Positions 30,294-30,486 of a stretch of DNA of 44,907 nt are shown here, piece after piece. Below the pieces are notes generated by a model that was given only the letters and a program-made list of their open reading frames with translations, did no database searches and was not told the origin of the DNA. The DNA lies in contig JAQURX010000015.1 of assembly GCA_028715415.1 (NCBI GenBank), positions 1 through 44,907 of the forward strand, read 5' to 3'. The stretch comes from Candidatus Omnitrophota bacterium. Its GTDB lineage: Bacteria > Omnitrophota > Gorgyraeia > Gygaellales > Profunditerraquicolaceae. Each line of letters begins with the position of its first letter. Positions within the stretch are counted from its first letter, which is position 1. The translations under genes were made by a program, and so were the position numbers.

Positions 30294-30335
30294 AAAAAGG
30301 CCCGTCTCTTATATAGAGATGGGCCTTTTTTATTG
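30294..30335 (+). terminator. Intrinsic terminator after gdhA
   Basis: Arms AAAAAGGCCCGTCTCT (30294-30309) and AGAGATGGGCCTTTTT (30315-30330) pair over 16 bp with one G-U, five-base loop, T run included. Confidence 0.9.
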
Positions 30336-30338
30336 CAT

Positions 30339-30449
30339 AAGTTTATATCCCAGCGGGGGTGACGCCGAGACGGGGCAACCCCACCGGCGCAGTGGGCGAG
30401 CACGGTGGGGTTGTCTCGGCGGCAGGACCCGCGCTGGGTAGAGAAACTT
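30339..30449. repeat. 111-nt GC-rich imperfect palindrome of unknown type
   Basis: Outer arms AAGTTT...CCCAGCG and CGCTGGG...AAACTT enclose an inner stem in which CGCCGAGA (30363-30370) and CAACCCCACCG (30376-30386) pair without mismatch with CGGTGGGGTTG (30403-30413) and TCTCGGCG (30414-30421), leaving a five-base bulge CGGGG on one side and a 16-base terminal loop. The base composition is far more GC-rich than the surroundings. It is a separate structure from the terminator just before it, and ends ten bases before the -35 box of the next promoter. Confidence 0.75.
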
Positions 30450-30458
30450 AATATCCGC

Positions 30459-30486
30459 TTGACCCCCTCTTTAATTATGATATTAT
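30459..30486 (+). promoter_or_regulatory. Promoter of the orphan receiver gene
   Basis: TTGACC (30459-30464), 16-base spacer, TATTAT (30481-30486). Confidence 0.55.

Follow-up and report, generated by a model that had tools for sequence, protein, structure and literature searches.

A GC-rich palindrome of 111 nt, which lies between two genes in the 44,907-nt stretch of DNA analysed here (the window), is probably one copy of a dispersed family of short, non-coding and non-autonomous mobile elements, approximately 60-170 nt in length, that would be recognised as folded single strands. That the elements are mobile is established by comparison of genome sequences; our best inference is that recognition acts on the base of the hairpin (the foot) in a folded strand. 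Short palindromic repeats are ubiquitous in bacteria and, to our knowledge, neither their movement nor the part that is recognised is known for most classes. The initial annotation of the window had left the palindrome as a non-autonomous repeat, a structured RNA or a recombination site. The first of these is now strongly supported (there are many copies, they move between sites, they are non-coding, and relatives have empty sites), while the other two are not favoured.

The hairpin and its setting

The bulged palindrome is real, with outermost arms AAGTTT/AAACTT, a 16-nt loop and an inner stem of 7 + 11 pairs, designated P2 and P3 (Table 1). A one-sided bulge had been taken for the only break in the stem; the bulge (ACGGGG) is present, but a second internal loop, with GA at 30361-30362 on the 5' side facing GCAGG at 30422-30426 on the 3' side, had been missed, and it is this loop that proves to belong to the conserved part of the family. 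Folded as RNA, the + strand reaches -71.2 kcal/mol, compared with -43.4 ± 3.6 for dinucleotide shuffles (z = -7.6; 0 of 200 shuffles as good), and when the whole 45 kb is scanned in 111-nt segments at 10-nt steps the element is by far the most stable (-69.9 versus a mean of -21.0, sd 6.0). GC content is likewise far above that of the surroundings, as had been noted: 67% for the element and 77% for its core, against around 39% in the region.

On its upstream side, the nearest gene, which is glutamate-dehydrogenase-like, ends in a stop codon that is followed by a terminator-like hairpin with a T run (approximately 30295-30332); on its downstream side, a sigma-70-like site (TTGACC-16-TATTAT, 30459-30486) stands ahead of a response-regulator gene. 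A strict terminator scanner called no terminator, we think because part of the T tract is taken up in the hairpin stem. Strong GC hairpins between genes might themselves be bidirectional intrinsic terminators. We give this reading next to no credence, in agreement with the initial annotation, given that the window copy stands after a separate terminator and that base runs around the family hairpins are reversed. They are T-rich before the hairpin and A-rich after it (positions 4-9 after the foot are 9-27% T and 31-46% A), so that no U tract follows on either strand. The window copy would have settled where transcription is absent, downstream of a terminator and ahead of the promoter that follows. 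This position, which the annotation had suggested as a possible regularity, is specific to the window copy, others being found at divergent, convergent and operon junctions.

Table 1. Coordinates of the hairpin and its parts in the window.
Feature	Position	Strand	Remarks and basis
Whole element, including copy-specific outer arms	30339..30449	+	111-nt palindrome, fold, genome copies
Core, covariance models R1/R2	30353..30434	+	74.6 bits, E 1.3e-13; sole match in the window
Left outermost arm AAGTTT	30339..30344	+	pairs with 30444-30449; copy-specific, other copies without it
Left arm CCCAGCG	30349..30355	+	pairs with 30432-30438; partly copy-specific
Conserved foot, left half GGGTGAC	30357..30363	+	R = A at 30362; covariation, R/R' count
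Stem P2, left strand CGCCGAG	30363..30369	+	pairs with 30415-30421; fold, covariation
One-sided bulge ACGGGG	30370..30375	+	5' side, opposite a single T
Stem P3, left strand CAACCCCACCG	30376..30386	+	pairs with 30403-30413; fold, covariation
Apical loop GCGCAGTGGGCGAGCA, 16 nt	30387..30402	+	sequence; comparison with relatives
Stem P3, right strand CGGTGGGGTTG	30403..30413	+	fold, covariation
Stem P2, right strand CTCGGCG	30415..30421	+	fold, covariation
Conserved foot, right half GGCAGGACCCG	30421..30431	+	R' = G at 30422; 11-mer and R/R' counts
Right arm CGCTGGG	30432..30438	+	sequence, fold
Right outermost arm AAACTT	30444..30449	+	sequence, fold

Copies, foot and interiors

A DNA search of the genome from which the window derives (1.85 Mb in 39 contigs) recovered eight clear copies. 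A ninth (L009) keeps the loop and has different stem sequences with pairing intact. A first covariance model, built from these nine, added a tenth copy of another subtype on contig C26. The own-genome copies are intergenic, occur in operon as well as divergent contexts, and lie in both orientations. The nine-copy model also found elements in 44 of the 117 genomes of the order. Rebuilt from 53 copies, the model detected them in 97 of 384 genomes of the phylum, all genomes compared being metagenome-assembled drafts; the distribution is patchy, with usually several elements per genome and a maximum of 12. The exact 16-mer of the loop, by contrast, occurs among the 384 genomes only in the window's own, and when this loop was extended by three bases and searched in genome_contigs and viral_contigs, the matches were no more than chance hits in GC-rich DNA that lacked the fold. 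The exact loop is thus a local variant, and a covariance model was needed to find relatives. None of the element types A to D described below matches Rfam (E up to 1; none above the gathering threshold), a literature search returned no description of the family, and an autonomous version did not come to light.

Two observations concern the extent of individual copies. In the own genome, an isolated right half, GGCGGCAGGACCCGC, lies directly 3' of a TonB-like gene (L010:1495-1528; G000:C19:23346-23372) and is probably a decayed copy. In genome G190 (L143-L149), approximately 200-300 bp of further repeated, probably structured sequence lies 5' of the elements, and the hairpin may there be one domain of a longer repeat.

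The invariant part of the family is the base of the hairpin, with the foot CGGGTG-R-C...G-R'-CAGGACCCG. Among 99 distinct elements, R/R' is A/G in 43 and G/A in 44, whereas A/A (5), G/G (2) and other combinations (5) are rare; the two purines of the pair may change places but not become alike. As modelled, the foot folds into a CGGGT/ACCCG helix followed by a loop of two nucleotides (G R) against five (R' C A G G), from which P2 starts with a C-G pair. The 11-mer GRCAGGACCCG occurs 40 times in G108 (2 times for the reversed control), 20 times in G143 (0) and 8 times in the own genome (0). The roughly 40 feet in G108 bear four different interiors: A is the type found in the window, B and C measure 62 nt each, and D is branched and approximately 160 nt long. 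All four fold on one common foot, and the length enclosed by feet ranges from 60 to 170 nt. The one-sided CGGGG bulge, which the initial annotation had regarded as typical of elements recognised as folded DNA, therefore is not diagnostic of the family: interiors vary, and it is the foot at the stem base that is kept. Indeed, the foot with its A.G/G.A swap pair is the sole feature kept across the phylum, the four interior types and a phage. It is unusual for interiors to be exchangeable on a constant foot, which suggests that selfish hairpins evolve in a modular way, and the foot makes the recognition of such hairpins as folded strands testable with short oligonucleotides.

To what extent is the fold itself maintained? 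Pairing holds in 93% of cells for a set of 47 distinct sequences and in 91% for a set of 72, and 19 and 21, respectively, of the 26 pairs have changed on both sides. Covariation scores are 0.48 and 0.54, compared with 0.145 after shuffling (0 of 500 shuffles reach the score), and fall below 0.08 when the 3' partner is slid by one column. Rows were aligned by the model itself, which biases the alignment towards structure; the effect is nonetheless so large, and its loss on sliding the partner so complete, that there is no doubt that the covariation is real. Compensatory change is strong in all stems, and covariation and copy number together exclude what the annotation had named as the contrary case, a single copy without conserved structure. 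Where mismatches are flanked by Watson-Crick pairs, G.U outnumbers A.C by about 4:1 (61 versus 15) on the modelled strand, which identifies that strand as the one that folds. In relatives, the apical loop consists of GCGCGCA, a small variable hairpin that is often GNRA-like, and GAGCAC, the outer two segments being conserved.

RNA-like covariation, GNRA-type apical loops and the excess of G.U would also be expected if the elements were structured RNAs (regulatory leaders, small RNAs or processing signals) kept at each site for a host function, and one junction, queA-tgt, holds a copy in four genera. We consider this unlikely. The slight sense excess relative to flanking genes (28:19) is not significant (p = 0.24) and yields no orientation rule, on which ground a strand-specific RNA function was rejected. 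Furthermore, divergent and convergent junctions are occupied too, neighbouring genes are unrelated, sister species lack the element at the same junctions, and stubs and broken stems occur.

Movement, decay and flanks

We compared orthologous junctions across 27 genomes of one genus. Between cysS and tmk, a type-A element is present in G329 and G223, its TAG providing the cysS stop codon; G135 and G051 carry other variants, G142, G391, G283, G145 and G255 have relatives of 180-210 nt, and G369, G388 and G174 have no element. A copy shared by G388 and G250 at a second junction is inverted in G405; there, a type-C element takes its place in G223 and G067 (inverted) and in G399 and G397 (direct), and at least seven genomes are empty. 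The empty sites that the initial annotation had proposed looking for thus exist at several orthologous junctions. Identical cores also turn up in unrelated surroundings, a mark of recent movement. One 62-nt core is found unchanged at six places in G108 with different flanks, and in G219 and G383, which belong to different families, a 150-bp unit with the core at its centre occupies 11 places at 97-100% identity, again with unrelated flanks.

A further copy resides in a phage. The IMG/VR contig IMGVR_UViG_3300036760_000384, which is GC-rich, carries an intergenic type-A element (L420:2916-3011) within a tail module (phrog_584, 290, 4204); it scores 43.7 bits against R2 (E 5e-7) and has a 7-bp P2 of its own sequence and a G/A foot. 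The remaining long-spacer matches to the foot pattern in viral contigs lack P2 and are due to chance, and BLAST of phage and plasmid collections returned no element. Related species differ at a given junction in whether an element is present, of which type and in which orientation; together with the recurrence of unchanged cores among unrelated flanks and with the phage copy, this implies that the element is mobile.

Once in place, copies decay, as stubs in G250 (TAGCGGCTGATACGG) and G399 (TTGGCAGACAGGACCCGCAA) indicate. The orthologous copies of G388 and G250 are identical at 76 of 82 positions, with P2 broken in one of them, and their flanks are 91-94% identical; a resting copy enjoys no visible protection.

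Two side observations bear on the junctions themselves. At L084, L066, L086 and L346, the initial TAG of the element doubles as the stop codon for the gene before it, which is cysS, queA or a third gene. In G145 and G401 (L335, L339), a different palindrome, TGTCATTGCGAGGAGC...GCTCGCAATGACA, occupies a gene junction that holds hairpins in sister species; this junction is a hot spot for repeats of several families.

Outside the foot, flanks are complementary to each other well above the level of randomly dealt flanks, out to about nine positions, and inverted words between flanks average 4.60 versus 3.84 when shuffled. No target-site duplication was found, direct words between flanks averaging 3.91 versus 3.72 when shuffled. 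In G108, identical cores carry differing paired arms (TTTTTAG/CTAAAA, TTTTG/CAAAA, TTCAG/CTG), and long paired arms occur in L187 (TCTAGAGCTAA...TTAGCTCTAGA) and L239 (TCCTCATT...AATGAGGA); those of the window copy are AAGTTT...AAACTT. Insertion may be directed to existing palindromes or may itself give rise to them; pairing of the arms could also stem from selection on the fold, independently of how the element inserts.

Might the outer arms instead be the terminal inverted repeats of a MITE, moved by a DDE transposase of the IS630/IS5 type, with the hairpin as passive filling? MITEs and other small mobile sequences of bacteria are, like our elements, non-autonomous, able to fold and present at many intergenic sites (PMC2229807). 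The 150-bp unit of G219 and G383 (L132-L142), with its central core, has 19-nt inverted ends, TAGAACTTRTCCCAAAATT, in a Y-TA...TA-R context, and IS-like fragments with similar ends are present in G219 (C32, C47, C71). Elsewhere, however, outer arms differ between identical cores, as in G108, direct repeats at the ends are at background level, and what is invariant is the inner foot, not the ends. As an account of the family we therefore regard this as improbable: unlike MITEs, it has no target duplication and apparently no constant terminal inverted repeat outside the G219/G383 lineage. In that lineage, the element has acquired, or joined, a TA-flanked unit that looks like an ordinary MITE and that a DDE transposase may move.

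Candidate movers and related systems

For the reading we prefer, a non-autonomous mobile hairpin recognised at its foot, the sequences suggest the following course. A putative enzyme, supplied in trans, would recognise the foot on one folded strand. The features it reads would be the CGGG/CCCG helix and the 2x5 internal loop (G-R / R'-CAGG), which contains the purine-purine pair, and the strand could be single-stranded DNA folded into a hairpin or an RNA that is later reverse-transcribed. The strand would then be inserted between genes without duplication of the target, at or beside palindromic sequence that often consists of a T run or an A run. The interior would need only to fold, which would account for compensatory change between active lineages and for the decay of old copies. 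Recognition as a folded single strand, already proposed in the initial annotation, fits the covariation, the G.U excess and the purine swap in the foot. A more ambitious version is a tentative possibility: a new type of bacterial mobile element, retro- or ssDNA-based, that has no genes, consists of a folded strand of 60-170 nt and is defined by its foot alone, with exchangeable interiors, a putative folded-strand enzyme that writes into palindromic junctions and makes or chooses the paired flanks, and defence genes that would travel between close copies.

Overall, the family works like other palindromic mobile repeats but lacks what defines a REP or an attC site and, in most lineages, what defines a MITE. 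REPs and GTAG- and CGTC-tagged repeats, including the Rickettsia palindromic elements, are short (20-40 bp), palindromic, mostly intergenic and gene-less, and no dedicated transposase is known for the CGTC class (PMC3733652). Our elements resemble them in being short, palindromic, mostly intergenic, dispersed and gene-less. Mobilisation as a REP-type repeat by a RAYT (a Y1 tyrosine transposase) would also fit the lack of target duplication, and Y1_Tnp genes are present in 21 of 26 element-bearing genomes, with two in the own genome. We nevertheless judge it very unlikely. No element lies within 1.5 kb of any of 30 Y1_Tnp loci, or within the shorter flank left by a contig end; several of the Y1 genes at L013 and L089-L116 are flanked by a different palindrome, GGGACGGTTC/GAACCGTCCC, likely their own REP-like family; and G143, 94% complete and with at least 11 elements, has no Y1_Tnp gene at all. 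A GTAG or CGTC tag occurs within 8 nt 5' of the foot in only 2 of 111 cases. Unlike REPs, moreover, the family is 60-170 nt long and combines a constant foot and 2x5 internal loop with four interchangeable interiors.

Integron attC sites are imperfect hairpins with one-sided extrahelical bases, conserved in structure rather than sequence, that a tyrosine integrase recombines as a folded bottom strand. The family shares the imperfect hairpin, the one-sided extra bases and the conservation of structure, and accessory, defence-like genes sometimes lie between its copies. An attC-like folded site, at which a tyrosine recombinase moves gene cassettes, would thus fit folded-strand recognition and the absence of target duplication. 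This, too, has little chance of being correct, as the two boxes (RYYYAAC / GTTRRRY) occur together at none of 111 elements and copies are dispersed in both orientations, with neither arrays nor a linked integrase.

Mobile GC clusters and hairpin elements of mitochondria also invade AT-rich intergenic DNA as GC-rich sequences, with no known enzyme (PMC4464245, PMC2800124). The family shares this GC-rich hairpin character in AT-rich intergenic DNA but differs in sequence and host, and for the family a constant foot and a covarying interior have been demonstrated. HEARO (IscB-associated) RNAs and DUF3800 RNA motifs are structured, non-coding and present in many copies, as are our elements, but types A to D stand apart from these and from IS605-associated RNAs in having no Rfam match. 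DUF3800 itself was considered as a mover, the lead being a gene between two elements in G223 together with the DUF3800 RNA motifs; it was rejected, since only 4 of 36 genomes have it and the own genome is negative.

Finally, small accessory genes are enclosed by two elements, in many cases an inverted pair, at several loci (L069:1652-3668, L070:1626-3480, L075:1463-3922, L071:1456-2573 and L066/L243). The enclosed genes resemble defence genes: HEPN_AbiU2 with NYN, XRE, an nSTAND NTPase, HepT-like and DUF3800.
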